This document shows, piece by piece, positions 52,324-64,000 of a stretch of DNA of 64,000 nt. The stretch is from contig NZ_CP061947.1 in NCBI RefSeq assembly GCF_014838715.1, forward strand, positions 5,136,001-5,200,000. Direction: 5' to 3'. Within the stretch, counting starts at the first letter, position 1. Every line of letters begins with the position of its first letter. The stretch is from Algoriphagus sp. Y33. Its GTDB lineage: Bacteria; Bacteroidota; Bacteroidia; Cytophagales; Cyclobacteriaceae. Position numbers and translations under genes: made by a program. The notes under the pieces are model-generated. The model ran no database searches, was not told the DNA's origin, and saw only the letters and a list, made by a program, of their open reading frames with translations.

Positions 52324-53016
52324 TTATCCTCCGGCTGCGATGGTAACCAAATCTACATTTTTTGCCCCACTTGCCAAAAGCACATTGGCGCAAGCACACA
52401 AAGTAGCTCCTGTCGTCATCACATCATCTACTAGGAGGATTGACTTATCGGTGATAGAATTATGGGGTGAAATCTGAAATACACCGTCCATATTATTCAT
52501 TCGCTCCAGTCGGGATTTCTGGGTTTGTGTTTCAGTAAATTTTCCACGAATTAATTCATTTTCCAACTTCACAGACAATTCCTTGCTTAGGCCTATTCCA
52601 AATTGCTCACTCTGGTTGTATCCTCTTCGGCTTTGCTTTAGTGGGTGCAACGGTACAGGCACGATGACATCCCAGTTCTTTTCAAATCCATGATCACTTA
52701 GAGTTTTACCATACAAGTATCCCAGCTCTTGAGCCAATTGCGGCTTATTCCTGTACTTAAGCTGATGCAAAAGTTTTTGGCTGCGCCCACCTTTGGTAAA
52801 TTTCAGGTAGGCCATTACCATTCCTACAGTACTTAGTCCTTTTACCTTTTCGCATAAATCATTGTCAATTGGCCTTAAATGATAGCTGGTAACAGGAAGT
52901 GTGCCCTTACAAATTACACATAGATTTTTCTCATGATCGTGAAGAGACGTTCCACACAAAAGACAATTGCGTGGAAAGACCAAATCCAAAAAATCTTTTA
53001 CAAAAAATAAACGCAT
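52324..53016 (-). CDS. ComF family protein (phosphoribosyltransferase-like)
   Basis: A 230-residue protein with an N-terminal zinc ribbon (CLLCG...CVICK) and a C-terminal type I PRTase domain; the PRPP loop is SILLVDDVMTTGATLCACANVL, and GYNQSEQFGIGLSKEL is the usual RGxNQ-type motif. ComF supports DNA uptake in naturally transformable species. Heads the short run comF, yfiT-like, SDR on the minus strand, divergent from the AhpD-like gene. Confidence 0.9.
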   Translation of the reverse strand: MRLFFVKDFLDLVFPRNCLLCGTSLHDHEKNLCVICKGTLPVTSYHLRPIDNDLCEKVKGLSTVGMVMAYLKFTKGGRSQKLLHQLKYRNKPQLAQELGYLYGKTLSDHGFEKNWDVIVPVPLHPLKQSRRGYNQSEQFGIGLSKELSVKLENELIRGKFTETQTQKSRLERMNNMDGVFQISPHNSITDKSILLVDDVMTTGATLCACANVLLASGAKNVDLVTIAAGG

Positions 53017-55521: not shown

Positions 55522-57387
55522 ATGTTTCCAATATACGATGTCATAGTAGTAGGGGCAGGGCACGCAGGCTGTGAAGCAGCACATGCTGCGGCACAGATGG
55601 GTTCTAAAGTACTGCTTTGTACTATGAACATGAACACTATTGCCCAAATGTCATGCAATCCTGCAATGGGAGGGGTGGCAAAAGGGCAAATTGTAAGAGA
55701 AATAGATGCGCTGGGGGGAATGTCAGGGATTATCTCAGATAAATCCATGATACAGTTCAGGATGCTTAACAGGTCTAAGGGTCCTGCTATGTGGTCGCCA
55801 AGATCCCAGAATGATCGCATGAAATTCGCAGAAGAGTGGCGGTTAGCCTTAGAACAAACGCCAAACGTGGATTTCTGGCAGGAAATGATCACAGGTTTAT
55901 TGGTAAAAAACGGACAGTTAAAGGGAGTAAGAACAAGTATTGGTCTAGAAATACAAGCCAAAAGTGTTGTATTAACCAATGGTACATTTCTAAATGGCCT
56001 CATTCATATTGGTGAGAAGCAATTTGGAGGAGGAAGAACCGGTGAGGCAGCAGCTCGAGGAATTACCGAGCAACTGGTACAATTAGGCTTCGAATCCGGT
56101 CGAATGAAAACCGGAACGCCTCCAAGAGTGGACGGAAGAAGTTTGGATTATTCGAAAATGGAAGTTCAATATGGCGATGAAAAACCGGAAAAATTCAGCT
56201 ATTCTGATACCACTTCAACACTAAAGGAGCAAAGAACTTGCTGGATTACCTATACAAATAAAGAAGTCCACTCCAGTCTGGAAGAAGGATTTGATAGATC
56301 ACCCATGTTCAATGGAAGAATACAAGGGCTTGGACCAAGATACTGCCCATCCATCGAAGATAAAATCAACCGTTTTGCAGAGAGAGATAGACATCAAATA
56401 TTCGTGGAGCCGGAAGGATGGAATACCGTGGAAATGTACATCAACGGCTTCTCCACTTCGTTACCTGAGGATGTACAATATAAAGCATTACGGAAAATTG
56501 AGGGATTCGAGAACGCAAGAATGTTTCGCCCCGGTTATGCAATAGAATATGATTTCTTTCCACCAACTCAGCTGAAACTCACGTTAGAAACTCAATTAAT
56601 GGAGAACTTATATTTCGCAGGCCAAATTAACGGAACTACAGGATATGAGGAAGCAGCTTCACAAGGATTGGTAGCAGGAATCAATGCCAGCCTAAAAGCT
56701 CAAGAAAAAGATCCTTTCTTACTAAAGAGATCAGATGCCTATATAGGCGTACTCATAGACGACCTGATCAATAAAGGTACTGAAGAGCCCTATAGAATGT
56801 TTACTTCCAGAGCTGAATTTAGGCTTCTACTCCGTCAGGATAATGCTGATCTTCGGCTAACCAAGAAAGGACATGATATAGGATTAGCTTCTGATAAGCG
56901 GTTGGAGAAAATGAACGTTAAGAAGGAGCAGACTGCAAAACTGATCAATGAGCTAAAACAAAAGAAAGTAAGTCCCGAAAGTGTCAATCAAGGCCTTGAA
57001 GAATCCGGCTCAGCATTAATCAAAGAAAAAATATCCGTTGAAAAACTGCTGAAAAGACCACAAATAGGTCTGGAACATTTGAAGAGTTTCAATACAGAAA
57101 TAGGGGAGTATCTATCCAAGTATTCTAATGATGTGCTTGAACAGGCTGAGATACAAATCAAGTATGACAGCTACATAGAGAAAGAGCAGCAAATGGTAGA
57201 GAAGCTCAGTAATATGGAAAACTTCAAAATCCCCTCAAAATTCGACTACATATCCATTCCTGCACTTTCTGCCGAAGGAAAACAAAAGCTCAATAAGATA
57301 AGACCTGAGACCATGGGTCAAGCTTCTAGAATCAGCGGAGTGACTCCTGCAGACTTATCCATAATTACCGTCTACCTTGGAAGATAA
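55522..57387 (+). CDS. mnmG: tRNA uridine-5-carboxymethylaminomethyl synthesis enzyme MnmG (GidA)
   Basis: FAD enzyme that, with MnmE, modifies the wobble uridine of several tRNAs. It is 621 residues with VVGAGHAGCEAAHAAA (FAD loop), CNPAMGGVAKGQIVREIDALGG, GTFLNGLIHIGEKQFGGGR, RMKTGTPPRVDGRS, and the C-terminal helical domain with RISGVTPADLSIITVYL. mnmG commonly lies close to oriC, as here: oriC begins about 2.6 kb downstream. Two parS sites precede it. Confidence 0.97.
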   Translation: MFPIYDVIVVGAGHAGCEAAHAAAQMGSKVLLCTMNMNTIAQMSCNPAMGGVAKGQIVREIDALGGMSGIISDKSMIQFRMLNRSKGPAMWSPRSQNDRMKFAEEWRLALEQTPNVDFWQEMITGLLVKNGQLKGVRTSIGLEIQAKSVVLTNGTFLNGLIHIGEKQFGGGRTGEAAARGITEQLVQLGFESGRMKTGTPPRVDGRSLDYSKMEVQYGDEKPEKFSYSDTTSTLKEQRTCWITYTNKEVHSSLEEGFDRSPMFNGRIQGLGPRYCPSIEDKINRFAERDRHQIFVEPEGWNTVEMYINGFSTSLPEDVQYKALRKIEGFENARMFRPGYAIEYDFFPPTQLKLTLETQLMENLYFAGQINGTTGYEEAASQGLVAGINASLKAQEKDPFLLKRSDAYIGVLIDDLINKGTEEPYRMFTSRAEFRLLLRQDNADLRLTKKGHDIGLASDKRLEKMNVKKEQTAKLINELKQKKVSPESVNQGLEESGSALIKEKISVEKLLKRPQIGLEHLKSFNTEIGEYLSKYSNDVLEQAEIQIKYDSYIEKEQQMVEKLSNMENFKIPSKFDYISIPALSAEGKQKLNKIRPETMGQASRISGVTPADLSIITVYLGR

Positions 57388-57388
57388 A

Positions 57389-58288
57389 ATGTTGGAAAGA
57401 CTTACTAAATGTCCGCTCTGCAAGAGTGGACATTTTCTTAACTATCGAGAAATACAAGATTACGCAGTCAGCCAAGAGCCTTTCATGCTATGCAACTGTA
57501 CAAACTGTGGATTAAAATTCACAAACCCAAGACCTACTGAAGATACAATTGCTCCCTATTACGATTTCCCTGAATATTTCTCCCACGATGATAAGGCTAA
57601 AAACCTAACCCAACTCGTCTATCAAAAAGTCAGAAAATACAATATATCCCAAAAACTAAGGTTTTTAACCAGTCTCAAGCCTCGTAAAGGAAATTATTTG
57701 GATTTCGGATGCGGAACTGCTGAGTTATTGGTACATGCTCATACCCTCGGATGGAAAGTAACAGGTATAGAACCAAATGAAAAAGCCAGAAAACTAGCTA
57801 ACTCAAAAATAAGTGGAAAGGTATACGAATCCATCAATGGGCTACCTAAAGGAAGCTCCTTTGACATCATAACGCTCTACCATGTATTAGAGCATATTCA
57901 TTCACTCAGAAAAACAGTAAAAACACTTATAAAACACTTGAAATCAAATGGTTATATATTAATTGCTATACCAAATCCCGAAAGTCATGATGCTACAAAA
58001 TATGGTGAACATTGGGCAGGTTGGGATGTACCAAGACATCTCTACCACTTCAATCTCCAAGCCATTGAAAATTTCGCAGAAATCTTCGATTTGCAACTAA
58101 AGGAAATATTGCCAATGTCTTTTGACAGCTATTACGTCTCACTCTTGTCTGAAGGATATGCAGATCCACAGCAATCAACGTTAAAGAAATATTGGAAAGC
58201 TATTATTTCAGGAAAAAAATCTAATAAAGAAGCAGTTAAAACTGCAGGAAATTATTCTAGCAACTTATTCGTTTTCAAAAAGAAGTGA
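57389..58288 (+). CDS. Class I SAM-dependent methyltransferase with N-terminal zinc motif
   Basis: 299 residues from ATG 57389, one base after the mnmG stop. An N-terminal CPLC...CNCTNCGLKF pattern suggests a zinc ribbon, then a Methyltransf_12-like SAM domain (YLDFGCGTAELLVHAHTLGWKV, DIITLYHVLEHIHSL). Proteins of this design (CPxC ribbon plus methyltransferase) often modify sugars or lipids; the substrate here is unknown. Its stop overlaps the next GTG by four bases. Confidence 0.85.
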   Translation: MLERLTKCPLCKSGHFLNYREIQDYAVSQEPFMLCNCTNCGLKFTNPRPTEDTIAPYYDFPEYFSHDDKAKNLTQLVYQKVRKYNISQKLRFLTSLKPRKGNYLDFGCGTAELLVHAHTLGWKVTGIEPNEKARKLANSKISGKVYESINGLPKGSSFDIITLYHVLEHIHSLRKTVKTLIKHLKSNGYILIAIPNPESHDATKYGEHWAGWDVPRHLYHFNLQAIENFAEIFDLQLKEILPMSFDSYYVSLLSEGYADPQQSTLKKYWKAIISGKKSNKEAVKTAGNYSSNLFVFKKK

Positions 58289-59958
58289 AACAACATAATC
58301 TAATCATACTTTTAGTTATAAGCATATTAGCTTTTTCATGTGCAAAACAAAGTGCACCAATGGGCGGGCCAAGGGATGAGGATCCACCCAAAGTTACAGA
58401 CATGAACCCAAAGGATCAAAGTCTGAATACAAAACCTGAAGAGATCATCATAACATTTGATGAATACATCAAACTCGATAATGCCAACAAAAACATTCTT
58501 ATTACACCAAGAATAAACAAGGACGAAGTAATTTTCACTGCATTGAAAAATACATTGGTGATCAAGCTAAATCAGGAATTAGAAGATAGCACAACCTATG
58601 TATTCAACTTCCAGAAGTCAATTCAAGATTTGTCCGAAGGAAATCCGGCTGAAAATCTCAAGCTAGTATTTTCAACAGGGAAAAGTATAGACAGTCTCAC
58701 ATTTTCAGGATCAGTGAATTCATACTTTTCGGGAAAAAATGACAAACCGGAAGACGCCATAGTGGGTTTATATCCAATAAATGATACCACAAATGTCTTT
58801 ATAGCACCCCCATATTACTTGACTCAGGTTGATTCAGCCCGTAGATTCAATATCTCAAATATTAAAGCAGGCAAATATCTGGCTTATGCTTGGCAGGATG
58901 ACAATAATAGCCTTAAAGCAGAATACAAGTCAGAAGCATTTGATTTTATTACCGATACCATTAGTATCAACGAAAACATTGAAGGGGTTCAATTCAATCT
59001 CTCAAAAGGTGATCAAAATCCTATCAGATTACTAAGATCGTCTACATTAGGATCTAATTACCTAATTGTCCTAAACAAAATGCCCGTAGATATCACTTTA
59101 GAAAATGAGAAACTCGGGAATGAAATTTTTTATACACTAGGAGATAAAAGAATCAATCTTTTTTCAGATGCCCCTATTTCAGATAGTCTGAAAGTCAATA
59201 TCAACTTAAAAGACTCCGTAGGATATCAAATCGATTCGCTTGTCTGGGCAAAATTTGAAGAATCCGACAGAAAACCGGAAAAACTGACCATTACCCCTAA
59301 CTCAGGGAAAAACTTCTACCAGACCCTTCCTATAGAATTAACCTTCAATAAACCTGTGAAAAGTATCAATTACGACTCACTTTATATTGCTTACGATACC
59401 GCCTCGATGATTCAGATTACCCCGGAGATGCTAAGCTTCAAAGATTCGCTGAGAAGAGATATTATCAACATTACCCTAACTATACCTGATTCCATACCTT
59501 ACGATGCTTTCACGCTCAAAGCAGCAGATTCTACCTTTAGGGATATCGAAGGGTTGTACAATGAAGGACCACTCTCAGGCAATTACAAAAGACTAAAAAG
59601 AGAAACATTGGCAGATGCCATTACAGGAACTATCCAGGACACAGAGGGGCCTTTCATTATCCAGCTGCTCGATAGTAAAGGCGACATAAAAAGAGAATCA
59701 TACGTAGAGACCGGAAACAAATTTTCCTTTAGTTTAATAGAAGCAGGAAACTACCAAATCAGAATAATAGAGGATGCAAACAGAAACCATCGCTGGGATC
59801 CTGCCAACTATGAAGAAAGACGGTATGCAGAACGGGTGTTCTATTACATCGACCCCGAAACGTCAAGTAAAAATATTACCATCAGAGGTGGCTGGACCTT
59901 GGAGGATCTTCAGATAAAAGCTACACCAAAGACCGGCTTAAAAACCATTCAGGATTAG
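58285..59958 (+). CDS. Ig-like (Big_5) domain lipoprotein
   Basis: A 557-residue exported lipoprotein (LVISILAFSCAKQ). The N-terminal mature part (GGPRDEDPPKVTDMNPKDQSLNTKPEEIIITFDEYIKLDN) is the usual Bacterial Ig-like domain 5 opening. Several beta domains follow, ending with RVFYYIDPETSSKNITIRGGWTLEDLQI. It starts at GTG 58285, overlapping the methyltransferase stop (GTGA). Such proteins are widespread in Bacteroidota and are presumably surface or periplasmic; function unknown. It is the last gene before oriC. Confidence 0.85.
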   Translation: MKQHNLIILLVISILAFSCAKQSAPMGGPRDEDPPKVTDMNPKDQSLNTKPEEIIITFDEYIKLDNANKNILITPRINKDEVIFTALKNTLVIKLNQELEDSTTYVFNFQKSIQDLSEGNPAENLKLVFSTGKSIDSLTFSGSVNSYFSGKNDKPEDAIVGLYPINDTTNVFIAPPYYLTQVDSARRFNISNIKAGKYLAYAWQDDNNSLKAEYKSEAFDFITDTISINENIEGVQFNLSKGDQNPIRLLRSSTLGSNYLIVLNKMPVDITLENEKLGNEIFYTLGDKRINLFSDAPISDSLKVNINLKDSVGYQIDSLVWAKFEESDRKPEKLTITPNSGKNFYQTLPIELTFNKPVKSINYDSLYIAYDTASMIQITPEMLSFKDSLRRDIINITLTIPDSIPYDAFTLKAADSTFRDIEGLYNEGPLSGNYKRLKRETLADAITGTIQDTEGPFIIQLLDSKGDIKRESYVETGNKFSFSLIEAGNYQIRIIEDANRNHRWDPANYEERRYAERVFYYIDPETSSKNITIRGGWTLEDLQIKATPKTGLKTIQD

Positions 59959-60421
59959 GCGTGGATAAGTGCCAATTCAAGTGTGGATAAAAACTGGGTA
60001 GGCAAGGATAACCCACTACTTATACACCGGGCTTCACCAAGCTATTTCTCCCGGTAAGTTATTTGGGGAAAAGCCAACAGTTATCCACTTCCCAAAATCA
60101 ATCTATCCACAGCTGATTTCCCAACAGTGAATAAGTAGTCAAGAATCCACATAAATCAGTCAAAAGAATTACTTCAATCATCTACAACAACTTACATGTG
60201 GACAAAACGGGGATAACCCGTGGGAAACCCTAGTAAAGTCCAATGAATAACGTGGAGAAGATTAATCCCCCTTCTTTTCCACAAATCCACAGTCCTAATA
60301 ACCTTAGTAAAGAATTTTTTTAAAAATCTATTTTACAATTATTATAAAAAGAGAGCGTGGATAACTCTTTGTAATGGCTTCGTATTTTGGTAATATTATA
60401 AGACACCCAAAATGATGAACT
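59959..60421. other. oriC: Chromosomal replication origin (oriC)
   Basis: A 463-bp non-coding region with many DnaA boxes. TGTGGATAA at 59982-59990 is a perfect R-type box. One-mismatch boxes are CGTGGATAA (59960-59968 and 60356-60364), TTATACACC (60020-60028), TTATCCACT (60081-60089), CTATCCACA (60103-60111), TGTGGACAA (60197-60205) and TTTTCCACA (60275-60283), plus weaker ones. An AT-rich tract at about 60311-60350 suits a duplex-unwinding element. parS sites and mnmG lie 2.6-4.5 kb to the left. dnaA is not adjacent. Confidence 0.88.
60311..60350. other. AT-rich duplex-unwinding element candidate
   Basis: About 40 bases almost without G or C (two T/A-rich runs around TCTATTTTACAATTATTATA), flanked on the left by the DnaA-box cluster and on the right by a CGTGGATAA box at 60356-60364. 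Position and composition fit the melting site of a bacterial origin. Confidence 0.65.
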
Positions 60422-62170
60422 ATGAAGCCGAGCAGACTTTTTGATTTAATTCCGTACCAAATTGCAACGTATGACAAGGAAGTAGCTTTGTCCAAAAAAA
60501 AGAACGGGAAATGGAAGGCCTATTCATCAAGAGATCTCAAGGAAATAGTCGATAATCTGAGTTTGGCGTTTTTGAAAGAAGGATTGGAAAAGGGAGAGAA
60601 AGTTGCGATAATCTCTGAAAACTGTCCTGAATGGAATTTTATCGATTTGGCCCTTCAGCAGATCGGTGCCATCTCAGTTCCTGTTTACCCCACCATTACT
60701 TCATCTGACTTTGAATACATATTTGACCATGCTGATGTCAAGATGATTTTCGTTGGTGACCAGACCATTTATGATAAAGCAAAAGAGGTCTGTGGACAGC
60801 GCACGATCTATAGCTTTTCACACCTGGATGGAGCTGTTTTCTGGGAGGATTTCTTGGCAAAAGGAGTAAATGAGAGTATTGCAGAGCTTGAGCTTTTGAA
60901 AGCGGCCGTTAAGCCGGATGATTTGTTTACCATTATTTATACCTCAGGCACTACCGGACGGCCAAAAGGTGTGATGCTTTCCCATATCAATGTTCTTTCA
61001 AATGTAGAATCGATCGCATCCATTATGACACCTGCTACCGGTTCATCAAGGATATTGAGTTTTCTTCCACTTTGTCATATTTATGAACGTACGGGTGCAT
61101 TTTGCTTTATGTACTTAGGCTTCTCTATTTATTATGCCGAAAGTCTGGAGATGCTGGGAGAGAATATGAAGGAAATCAAACCGCATGCATTCAATACTGT
61201 TCCCCGACTTTTGGAGAAAATTTATGATAAAATAGTTGCCAGAGGGTACGAGCTTACCGGCATTAAGAAAGGACTTTTCTTTTGGGCACTGAAGCTGGGT
61301 CTGGAGTATGATCCTGCCAAGGAAATGGGAGCTTGGTATGATTTTCAACTGAAAATTGCCAATAAATTAATCTTTAGTAAATGGAGAGAAGCTTTGGGCG
61401 GAGAGGTTCTCCAGATTAATTCAGGCGCTTCAGCCCTGCAGTTTAGATTGGCTAGGGTTTTCTGGGCTGCAGGGATCAAAGTATGTGAGGGATATGGCCT
61501 GACGGAGACTTCACCGGTAGTATCTGCCTCTATTTGTACCCGGGAAGAGATGAGAATCGGATGGGTAGGAAAAATAGTAAAGGATGTGAAAGTGAAAATA
61601 GCTGAAGATGGCGAAATTCTCGTCCAAGGATCCAATGTCATGCAAGGATACTACCGGCAGCCTGAGATGACCGCAGAGGCACTTAAAAACGGCTGGTTTC
61701 ATACAGGTGACATAGGAGAGCTTGACGGAGAATTCTTAAAGATCACGGATCGTAAAAAAGAGATGTTCAAAACCTCCGGAGGGAAGTACATCGCGCCACA
61801 GCTGATGGAGAATAAATTCAAAGAATCTACACTGATTGATCAGCTGATGGTAGTAGGTGAAAACAGAAATTTTCCGGCGGCACTCATTGTCCCTGCTTTT
61901 GAAGGTTTAAAAGACTATTGTAAGCATAAAGGAATCCCCTATACCTCTGATAGGGAGATGATACAGAGGCCGGATATTCTGGATAAATATGATCGCGAAG
62001 TAGAACAGCTGAACAAATACTTTGCGAAATGGGAGCAAGTGAAGCGTTTCAGCCTATTATCAGCACCTTGGGGGATTGAATCGGGGGAATTGACTCCCAC
62101 TATGAAATTAAAGAGAAAAGCGATTTTGCAGAAATACCAAGCCGAAATTAAGCTTATCTATCAGGAATGA
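60422..62170 (+). CDS. Long-chain acyl-CoA ligase (AMP-forming)
   Basis: A 582-residue adenylate-forming enzyme, FadD/ACSL-like, activating fatty acids with ATP and CoA. Motifs: TIIYTSGTTGRPKGVMLSH (P-loop), GYGLTETSPV, and GWFHTGDIGELDGEFLKITDRKKEMFKTSGGKYIAPQ (A8 region). It lacks the PKTRSGK-type C-terminus of acetyl-CoA synthetases and ends in a helical segment, as in long-chain ligases. It is the first gene to the right of oriC, on the leading strand, and is followed by MarR and 3-hydroxyacyl-CoA dehydrogenase genes of fatty acid metabolism. Confidence 0.92.
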   Translation: MKPSRLFDLIPYQIATYDKEVALSKKKNGKWKAYSSRDLKEIVDNLSLAFLKEGLEKGEKVAIISENCPEWNFIDLALQQIGAISVPVYPTITSSDFEYIFDHADVKMIFVGDQTIYDKAKEVCGQRTIYSFSHLDGAVFWEDFLAKGVNESIAELELLKAAVKPDDLFTIIYTSGTTGRPKGVMLSHINVLSNVESIASIMTPATGSSRILSFLPLCHIYERTGAFCFMYLGFSIYYAESLEMLGENMKEIKPHAFNTVPRLLEKIYDKIVARGYELTGIKKGLFFWALKLGLEYDPAKEMGAWYDFQLKIANKLIFSKWREALGGEVLQINSGASALQFRLARVFWAAGIKVCEGYGLTETSPVVSASICTREEMRIGWVGKIVKDVKVKIAEDGEILVQGSNVMQGYYRQPEMTAEALKNGWFHTGDIGELDGEFLKITDRKKEMFKTSGGKYIAPQLMENKFKESTLIDQLMVVGENRNFPAALIVPAFEGLKDYCKHKGIPYTSDREMIQRPDILDKYDREVEQLNKYFAKWEQVKRFSLLSAPWGIESGELTPTMKLKRKAILQKYQAEIKLIYQE

Positions 62171-62222
62171 TGAGCTGATTTAGAATACTTTACATTTTTT
62201 TTAACATTAGTAAATCCTATTG

Positions 62223-62298
62223 TCAAAGGAGGCATTTTTTACAAATATTCTGGTTCTACTGAATTATTTTTCATTTCCATCATCAAGGGAGGCTTTTT
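62223..62298. repeat. Short direct repeat
   Basis: TCAAAGGAGGCATTTTT (62223-62239) recurs as TCAAGGGAGGCTTTTT (62283-62298), two to three differences over 16-17 bases, 60 bases apart, in the gap before the marR gene. Confidence 0.4.
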
Positions 62299-62327
62299 GT
62301 TGAATTCTCCGTAAATGTCAATTTGTG

Positions 62328-62367
62328 ATGCATGCATAACTTTTTTCAATATAGTATGCATGCATAC
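62328..62367 (+). promoter_or_regulatory. Tandem MarR operator candidates
   Basis: ATGCATGCAT at 62328-62337 and GTATGCATGCATAC at 62354-62367 are palindromes sharing the core ATGCATGCAT, with centres 28 bp apart. The second lies 12 bases upstream of TACATTAG (62379-62386), a one-mismatch TAnnTTTG -7 box, so binding there would cover the -33 region. The MarR regulator starts 50 bases downstream. Autoregulation is inferred. Confidence 0.6.
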
Positions 62368-62416
62368 ATTATTTTTTGTACATTAGAAATCGTTAAAATT
62401 GAAGCAATTCGGAGAG

Positions 62417-62887
62417 ATGAAGAGAGAAGAAACAGTTGATTATCATATAAAAAGTGCCTGGCACGCCATCTCCAGAATGTACAATCAGCAGGCTGCCGCA
62501 GAAGGTTTTACTACTGCCATCGGCTTTGTACTGATCAACATCAATTCGAAGGAAGGAACACCGGCTACCAAAATTGCGCCGCAAATAGGCTTGGAGACCA
62601 GAAGCCTAACCCGTATGCTGAAGACGATGGAAGAAAAAGGACTTATTTTCAAAAAACCGGATTTGGTGGACAAACGGTCTGTCCGGATCTACCTTACAGA
62701 AAAAGGGAAAAAGAAAAAGGAAATTTCAGTAAATACCATTCGGGAATTCAATGAACAGGTGCGTGGAGTGATCAGCGAAGAAGAGTTGAACAGCTTTTTT
62801 AGCGTATTTGAAAAGATACAGCTGGTCATCGATCAGGTGCAGATTGATAAGGGAGTAGATATCAACAAACCAATATTTGAATTATGA
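62417..62887 (+). CDS. MarR family transcriptional regulator
   Basis: From ATG 62417, 156 residues; the winged helix-turn-helix is TPATKIAPQIGLETRSLTRMLKTMEEKGLIFKKPDLVDKRSVRIYLTEKGKK, the MarR hallmark (DkRsv.v.LTe.G). An upstream TTG at 62399 is a less likely start. It lies between the acyl-CoA ligase and a 3-hydroxyacyl-CoA dehydrogenase, so it probably senses acyl-CoAs or fatty acids and controls this block. Two palindromic operators precede it. Confidence 0.9.
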   Translation: MKREETVDYHIKSAWHAISRMYNQQAAAEGFTTAIGFVLININSKEGTPATKIAPQIGLETRSLTRMLKTMEEKGLIFKKPDLVDKRSVRIYLTEKGKKKKEISVNTIREFNEQVRGVISEEELNSFFSVFEKIQLVIDQVQIDKGVDINKPIFEL

Positions 62888-62922
62888 ACCAATAACCGCC
62901 ACTAGGCTAAAAGCCCAAAATT

Positions 62923-64000
62923 ATGAACAGAACCATTAAAAAAGTTGCCGTTTTAGGTTCGGGAGTTATGGGATCCAGAATTGCCTGTCATTTCGCCAAT
63001 ATTGGCGTTCAGGTACTTTTATTGGACATTGTACCTTTTGAACTCTCAGAGCAGGAACAGAAAAAAGGACTCACTAAGGATCATCCTATGGTCAGAAACC
63101 GGATAGTAAACGAAGCTTTGCAAAGCACATTGAAGTCAAATCCTTCAGCTATCTATGATAAAGCTTTTGCATCCAGGATTACCACAGGAAATTTTGATGA
63201 TGACCTTCCCAAGATAAAGGACTATGATTGGGTAATCGAAGTAATTGTGGAAAGATTGGATATTAAGCAGGGTCTTTTTGAAAAAGTAGAAAAATGTAGA
63301 AAACCGGGCACACTGATCACCTCCAATACTTCCGGTATTCCTATGCATATGATGTGTGAAGGAAGGTCGGAAGACTTTCAGGAGAATTTTGTAGGAACAC
63401 ACTTTTTCAATCCACCCCGGTATCTGAGACTTTTGGAGATTATTCCAGGTCCTAAAACAAAGCCGGAGATCGTGGATTTTATGATGGAATATGGTGATAA
63501 ATTCCTTGGAAAAGAAACCGTGCTGTGTAAGGATACACCGGCGTTTATAGCAAATAGAATTGGTGTATATGCAATTATTTCGGCCATGCACACCATTGAG
63601 AAAATGGGGCTTGGAGTATCTGAAGTGGATAAATTGACCGGAACGATCATAGGTCGGGCCAAATCCGCCACTTTCCGAACCATGGATGTGGTCGGTTTGG
63701 ATACTACCGTGAATGTGGCCAATAATCTTTACAAAGCCCTTCCGGATGATGAATCCAGAGATAAATTCAAGCTTCCGAAAATAGTAGAGGTTTTACACAG
63801 CAATAAGTGGTTCGGGGATAAGACTGGGCAGGGATACTTCAAAATGATCCGTCACAAAGATGGCTCCAAAGAGTTGAAGGAAATAGACTTTGAGACGTTC
63901 GAATATAAGGAGGTAGAAAAGCCAAAATTCAAAGCTTTGGAAGCTGCAAAGGAATTTGAAGACCTTAGAAAGCGGATCAAATATCTGGTGAATTTTGATG
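62923..64000 (+). CDS. 3-hydroxyacyl-CoA dehydrogenase/enoyl-CoA hydratase family protein (partial)
   Basis: The gene is cut by the right edge; 359 codons are visible from ATG 62923. The N-terminal NAD-binding domain has VAVLGSGVMGSRIACHF, the catalytic His region GTHFFNPPRYLRLLEII, TSNTSGIPMHMM, and the C-terminal dehydrogenase domain follows (GDKFLGKETVLCKDTPAFIANRIG). The layout fits the long beta-oxidation proteins that carry a hydratase domain at the C-terminus, probably outside the window. It starts 35 bases after the marR stop, likely in one operon. Confidence 0.9.
   Translation, partial: MNRTIKKVAVLGSGVMGSRIACHFANIGVQVLLLDIVPFELSEQEQKKGLTKDHPMVRNRIVNEALQSTLKSNPSAIYDKAFASRITTGNFDDDLPKIKDYDWVIEVIVERLDIKQGLFEKVEKCRKPGTLITSNTSGIPMHMMCEGRSEDFQENFVGTHFFNPPRYLRLLEIIPGPKTKPEIVDFMMEYGDKFLGKETVLCKDTPAFIANRIGVYAIISAMHTIEKMGLGVSEVDKLTGTIIGRAKSATFRTMDVVGLDTTVNVANNLYKALPDDESRDKFKLPKIVEVLHSNKWFGDKTGQGYFKMIRHKDGSKELKEIDFETFEYKEVEKPKFKALEAAKEFEDLRKRIKYLVNFD

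Follow-up and report, generated by a model that had tools for sequence, protein, structure and literature searches.

We predict, with near certainty, that the whole of an intergenic gap of 463 bp in the chromosome of Algoriphagus sp. Y33 is the chromosomal origin of replication, oriC, and that it is used by a DnaA protein encoded 1.18 Mb away. The gap occupies positions 59959-60421 of the window that we have analysed, a stretch of 64,000 nucleotides (bases 5,136,001-5,200,000 of a genome that is a single contig of 6,378,979 bp), which corresponds to C1:5,195,959-5,196,421 in genome coordinates. A preliminary description of this DNA had placed an origin here, and our analysis supports it through a minimum of third-position skew, a cluster of DnaA boxes, the least stable DNA of the window and conservation in relatives; the weight of the argument lies with the third-position skew and the relatives, from which our confidence follows. 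The features expected of an oriC were found together at this place: the genome encodes DnaA, the box cluster exceeds chance, an AT-rich unwinding element (predicted from computed stability and position) lies beside the boxes, place and sequence are both conserved in relatives, and the cumulative skew has its minimum here for third codon positions, with a near tie for the raw skew. The neighbouring genes are those already named in the preliminary description, an Ig-like lipoprotein gene directly to the left (58285-59958, plus strand; Big_5, PF13205) and an AMP-binding acyl-CoA ligase gene to the right (60422-62170, plus strand), and further left lie two conserved neighbours, a class I methyltransferase gene (57377-58288, plus strand) and mnmG (gidA; 55522-57387, plus strand). 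Among named sequences, the lipoprotein is best matched by those of Algoriphagus species.

The skew of the chromosome was followed in a contiguous 100 kb and in a sample of 80 stretches (one per 80 kb, nearly all of 20 kb) plus the window, later extended by 15 stretches to 95 plus the window. We gave preference to third codon positions because they control better for gene orientation. Within the contiguous 100 kb, third-position skew passes from -0.27 in the lipoprotein gene to +0.17 in the ligase gene and the cumulative minimum is located precisely between the two, while in the sampled genome the cumulative minimum lies at the window, the maximum lies at 1.90 Mb and the sign turns between 1.90 and 1.94 Mb, giving replichores of about 3.11 and 3.27 Mb with ter taken at 1.93 Mb. 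The claim of a skew minimum at the gap therefore holds for third codon positions, whereas the raw skew has its minimum here or, with another weighting, marginally at 4.88-4.96 Mb. Raw GC skew switches sign in the region of the window and again near 1.9-2.0 Mb; its minimum in the contiguous 100 kb is at window position 53012, 7 kb left of the gap, and its cumulative value in the sampled genome is a near tie between the window (-9337) and 4.88-4.96 Mb (-9239), which turns marginally in favour of 4.88 Mb when gap-weighted sums are used (-38108 for the window against -38237). A second raw-skew low is found at C1 4880001-4980000 and is followed by positive skew at 4.96 Mb; it may be a local inversion or an effect of gene orientation.

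Some clusters of DnaA boxes are known to have regulatory roles, and taken together with the raw skew they allow another reading, in which the cluster in the gap titrates DnaA or serves regulation and replication starts at 53012 or near 4.88-4.96 Mb. We consider this very unlikely. The raw skew is shifted between 53.1 and 60 kb because the ORFs there lie on the plus strand, but the third-position minimum coincides exactly with the gap in the local analysis and with the window in that of the whole sampled genome, and the AT tract of the gap is the least stable DNA of the window. The relatives point the same way. Their loci were located with an alignment of 16 lipoproteins, and the best 80 of 100 found were all examined; 69 of these best 80 had 5 kb or more on both sides, and in all 69 the downstream third-position skew exceeds the upstream one (means +0.07 and -0.11; downstream positive in 62, upstream negative in 66), and the local cumulative minimum is at the end of the lipoprotein gene in 45 of the 69, with the provision that related species are non-independent observations in these and all other counts of relatives. 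The complete genome G047 (5.69 Mb, 20 stretches) has its third-position skew step at the same locus, from -0.17 to +0.12 across two 20-kb stretches whose common border is inside the homologous lipoprotein gene; among its left-arm stretches, that at 1.14 Mb has a third-position skew near zero.

The DnaA-box cluster of the gap is the second line of evidence for an origin. Compared with TTATCCACA, the gap holds one perfect site, six sites with a single mismatch and eight with two mismatches, and compared with the looser consensus TTATNCACA it holds one perfect and eight single-mismatch sites; the perfect box of the preliminary description and its occurrence of boxes on both strands are thus borne out, whereas its "at least seven" single-mismatch boxes are reached with TTATNCACA only. 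The seven sites with at most one mismatch stand against 0.17 expected from the rate in the 1.66 Mb of sampled genome, of which the gap is the densest cluster (four sites in the next best 463-bp window), and first-order Markov sequences derived from the gap itself contained 0.15 sites on average and 2 at the maximum (500 sequences). Conservation of the individual boxes was expressed as the share of 68 aligned gaps (the window and 67 others) that have a box at a stated mismatch limit. From left to right, the array begins on the minus strand with TTATCCACG (59960-59968; one mismatch), found with at most one mismatch in 46% of the gaps, and with the perfect box TTATCCACA (59982-59990), found, as are all those that follow, with at most two mismatches, in 91%. 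It continues with the weak, two-mismatch boxes TTATACACC (60020-60028, plus strand; 79%) and TTTTCCCCA (60064-60072, minus strand; 82%), the one-mismatch boxes TTATCCACT (60081-60089; 81%) and CTATCCACA (60103-60111; 74%), both on the plus strand, the weak box GAATCCACA (60143-60151, plus strand; two mismatches; 81%) and, on the minus strand, the one-mismatch box TTGTCCACA (60197-60205; 63%) followed by the weak, two-mismatch boxes TTATCCCCG (60208-60216; 79%) and TTCTCCACG (60251-60259; 79%). The two identical copies of CGTGGATAA that had been seen at 59960 and 60356 are both present, and the idea that they mark boundaries is half borne out, in that a box with at most one mismatch occupies the right site in 72% of the 68 aligned gaps and the left site in 46%. 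Elsewhere in the sampled genome, two windows near C1 5287801 and 6161701 have four boxes with at most one mismatch per 463 bp; they could have a role in regulation or titration or be due to chance.

The genome has a single match to PF00308 (dnaA), at base 397, in a gene at C1:1-1419 whose product carries FGGRDHSTVIHA in its C-terminal domain, a motif that we take to be the box-binding signature. The distance from dnaA to the gap is 1.18 Mb round the circle, so the description of an origin without adjacent dnaA was correct, and in the family sample all 15 single-contig genomes with this lipoprotein are alike in this, with dnaA 0.42-2.41 Mb from its locus (three genome lengths being rounded). 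That the record begins at dnaA might be taken to mean that the real origin is there, at base 1, like that of many other bacteria, and that the cluster in the gap is secondary. We regard such an arrangement as extremely improbable: dnaA lies 1.18 Mb inside one replichore with positive sampled skew on both sides, there is no cluster of boxes with at most one mismatch at the gene (relative to its start, the nearest such boxes lie 1.3 kb upstream and 7.9 kb downstream), and the 15 family genomes also have dnaA apart from the locus. Four minus-strand DnaA-like sites do occur within about 490 bp at C1:6364577-6365063, 14 kb upstream of dnaA, in a stretch that by eye is coding-like, and they are probably due to chance. 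A dnaA gene remote from oriC is documented as common in Bacteroidetes in the available excerpt of PMC4755523, so that an oriC without dnaA is in itself not new for the phylum.

To the right of the box array, the gap contains what appear to be the parts of an opening site. A tandem pair of DnaA boxes, TTTTCCACA and AAATCCACA (60275-60291, plus strand), with starts 8 bp apart and one mismatch at 60275 and two at 60283, faces the AT tract; at a limit of two mismatches, the first box is present in 100% and the second in 99% of the 68 aligned gaps, and the pair, together with the TAATAACC-type motif and the T tract that follow it, is the most conserved piece of the alignment. After a spacer of 2-3 nt comes an interrupted DnaA-trio-like element (60295-60309, minus strand), reading CTA ATA ACC TTA GTA on the plus strand and giving A-centred triplets on the minus strand, in which the middle base fits in 68, 68, 6, 58 and 57 of the 68 gaps at places one to five and the third triplet is ACC in 39 of them. 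The same place in L261, a locus from another family, holds six unbroken triplets as judged by eye from the sequence, and we infer from this that the version of the family is an interrupted DnaA-trio. The published trio rule, as given in the consulted part of PMC8287927 (section 13), requires at least three consecutive A-centred triplets within 16 nt of a DnaA box, the boxes having at most two mismatches and being single or tandem with a second box of at most four. The boxes at 60275 and 60283, with one and two mismatches and near the trios, are of the quality that a basal unwinding system calls for. The window has three A-centred triplets on the left side and six on the right; on the left side, the full rule is passed by 39 of the 68 gaps against about 50% of shuffled sequences, and runs of at least five triplets occur in 14 of the 68 against 7% of shuffles, so that the rule discriminates little on this side. 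The DNA unwinding element is predicted at 60296-60355 from stability and AT content: among the 63,950 stretches of 51 bp that the 64-kb window contains, the one beginning at 60296 is the least stable, and the AT-rich tract that had been pointed out before is confirmed at 60309-60355, with 87% A+T.

The same arrangement of genes and boxes was found in relatives. Among the best 80 of the 100 loci, the methyltransferase gene is present in 80 and mnmG lies upstream in 79, the remaining contig beginning inside the methyltransferase gene; in a sample of 148 genomes of the family, the lipoprotein was found in 138 and dnaA in 146. An acyl-CoA ligase gene follows the gap in 68 of the best 80 loci, four loci end too early to tell, and eight (L143-L145, L148, L149, L154, L156 and L160) have no ligase match there. 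The 68 gaps that end at a ligase gene contain 2-10 sites with at most one mismatch each, and the eight loci that lack the ligase contain 6-8 within the next 700 nt. The count of the tandem-box core depends on its definition, since a looser, box-based search finds it in 77 of 77 loci longer than 430 nt (from the best 80 of 100) and a strict regular expression finds it in 69 sequences out of 81, missing 12, of which four are loci that end early; of the eight loci without the ligase, the looser search finds it in all eight and a strict expression in five.

These eight loci bear on a further reading, according to which the conserved sequence is mainly the promoter or operator region of the acyl-CoA ligase gene. 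An inverted repeat, TTTTGG...CCAAAA around the palindrome TAATATTA, does lie at 60385-60412 just ahead of that gene, and 33 of the 68 ligase-ending gaps (loci from the best 80 of 100) have TAATATTA within their final 70 nt. In all eight loci that have no ligase beside the gap, TAATATTA is absent, but the boxes and the tandem core persist, which suggests that the repeat may belong to the ligase gene and that the box array does not; as an account of the array, the promoter reading is thus scarcely credible. The repeat could possibly be an operator, perhaps for the gene of a MarR-type regulator at 62399-62887. A scan of 59900-60500 found no sigma-70 promoter and one terminator-like site, which is within the expectation from shuffles. 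An RNA gene in the gap was also considered and rejected, since Rfam at gathering thresholds gave zero matches over 57000-63000.

Beyond the AT tract, the predicted origin has a further distinctive part, a DnaA box that faces inward. In the window this is a second copy of TTATCCACG (60356-60364, minus strand), 81 bp from the first tandem box. A minus-strand box with at most one mismatch is found to the right of the AT tract in 68 of the 77 loci longer than 430 nt (from the best 80 of 100), against none of the 77 for the plus-strand control and 1.1% of shuffled segments; with at most two mismatches it is found in all 78 sequences (the same 77 loci, from the best 80 of 100, and the window), against 0 of 78 for the plus strand and about 6% (6.1%) of shuffled segments. 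Its distance from the first tandem box is near 72 bp in 20 of the 78 sequences and near 81 bp in 44, and 14 have a box at both positions, which in 13 of these 14 are 9 bp apart; the two position ranges, for at most two mismatches, were set after the results for at most one mismatch had been seen. We first read this bimodal spacing as helical phasing, and it proved to be two box positions 9 bp apart. A periodicity scan of the spacing has a broad peak near 9.5. With two positions 9 bp apart and so broad a peak, helical phasing is only suggestive: the right box stands at about 72 and/or about 81 bp, two positions that differ by nearly a full helical turn, which would fit a role for rotational phase. 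Runs of at least five triplets directed inward from the right box occur in 38 of the 68 gaps against about 17% in shuffles, a difference that close relatives inflate.

We extended the comparison to 20 further loci. The lipoprotein served to locate 16 of them, in other genera of the family, and four (L259-L262), which belong to three different families within the order, were hand-picked for likeness to the consensus from 31 genomes outside the family with motif hits. All 20 have mnmG and a lipoprotein homologue and 16 have the methyltransferase gene; seven of the 20 are motif hits, so that in them the core is present by construction and the mnmG neighbour is not. The densest 500-bp window of these loci holds 3-12 boxes, with weak clusters in four of them (three boxes in L247 and L257, four in L244 and in L262, where two of the four are inside the lipoprotein gene). 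The core is absent from four of the 20 by the definition used here; in the 16 loci that have it, a right box with at most one mismatch is present in nine, at a spacing of 78-82, and lacking in seven. The 31 genomes come from a pattern search in the order, which covered 390 genomes and matched 79: 48 of the 74 family members and 31 of the 316 others. The reversed control pattern matched three genomes in the family and 16 outside, and about half of the outside-family hits may therefore be chance. Eight outside-family loci among the matches listed (L193-L200; about 2-3 kb each) include one lipoprotein homologue, in L194, and several boxes each in L196-L198. A stricter pattern, applied to a sample of the phylum, matched 9 of 395 genomes, five of 15 in the order of Algoriphagus and four of 380 outside it. 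One of the hits within the order, in G130, is not at the origin; of the four outside the order, L279 and L284 lie among several boxes and L278 and L283 do not convincingly do so. A right box with at most one mismatch was found in two of the seven loci of the outside-family set, and one of these two, L284, is outside the class. In this locus (genome G643, same phylum, other class), a box cluster includes the tandem core described above, and a perfect box faces inward at a distance of 78 bp. L284 hints that a two-sided layout could be older than the order.

Based on these elements, the following course of initiation can be proposed. DnaA would occupy the stronger boxes first and the weaker boxes later. 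From the tandem pair at 60275-60291, a filament of DnaA would be guided along the adjacent trio-like element, on its minus strand, and would open the AT tract at 60296-60355. Up to this point, opening from a tandem pair over a trio-like element is the ordinary model. The conserved box in opposite orientation suggests, in addition, a second, inward-facing anchor for DnaA: the box at 60356-60364 may hold DnaA on the far side, either to seed another filament, on the opposite strand, or to act as a clamp accompanied by a bend. Helicases would be loaded next, and forks would travel both ways to about 1.93 Mb. The most far-reaching version, a two-sided opening in which DnaA filaments grow inward on opposite strands and one helicase is loaded per strand, is a possible outcome that we put forward tentatively and would at present lean against. 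Inward-facing boxes around the opening site thus pose a testable question, whether DnaA is loaded from one side or from both. No paper on DnaA loading from two "sides of the DUE" was found, and no related study of an Algoriphagus oriC was recognised, in a literature search that left most subscription journals outside.

The preliminary description fairly stated that origins in this branch are rarely mapped by experiment. Xu et al. reportedly described, in 2012, replicating oriC plasmids for Cytophaga hutchinsonii, which we take to belong to the same order as Algoriphagus and in which an origin fragment is used to support plasmid replication; the plasmid tables of other papers, as far as those excerpts go, have oriC plasmids of this species in use. 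Our data therefore offer a precise and conserved origin map for an order with one oriC-plasmid system met in the literature searched. Such a map can serve in the building of plasmids and in read-depth estimates of growth rate in environmental Cyclobacteriaceae, and it portrays an origin that stays beside mnmG while dnaA sits 0.4 to 2.4 Mb off.

In Escherichia coli, oriC likewise adjoins mnmG/gidA, with dnaA elsewhere. One passage puts the origin of Yersinia between the same two genes as that of E. coli, gidA and mioC, and the E. coli oriC is described with left and right DnaA-box arrays in the section consulted of PMC10316083. The gap of Algoriphagus resembles it in its mnmG/gidA neighbour, in an AT-rich unwinding element beside a box and in boxes of both orientations; in contrast, the E. 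coli boxes flank the unwinding element on one side, whereas inward-facing boxes lie on both sides in Algoriphagus. Within the Bacteroidota, the oriC regions in DoriC and Ori-Finder, resources made for predicting such origins according to the part seen of PMC10225481, are similar, the example of Prevotella intermedia OMA14 (excerpted text of PMC4755523) likewise having a box cluster at a skew transition and a distant dnaA. To this, the gap adds a distinctive and well-conserved layout: a tandem pair, an interrupted trio-like motif, an AT tract and one or more opposed inward boxes. A further likeness is to the basal unwinding system of Bacillus subtilis and others, in which tandem boxes also face A-centred triplets and an AT tract (PMC8287927, PMC6669920, in the portions available). 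In B. subtilis, according to the same portion of PMC6669920, trio-proximal boxes lose their function when reversed, whereas a distal box, subject to helical phasing, is functional in both orientations. The tandem boxes of Algoriphagus are 8 bp apart from start to start and share one base, whereas the published search, in the excerpt of PMC8287927, allows at most 3 bp between boxes. Other features also set Algoriphagus apart from the basal unwinding system: in most aligned gaps the third place interrupts the triplet run, and past the AT tract there is a second box that faces inward.
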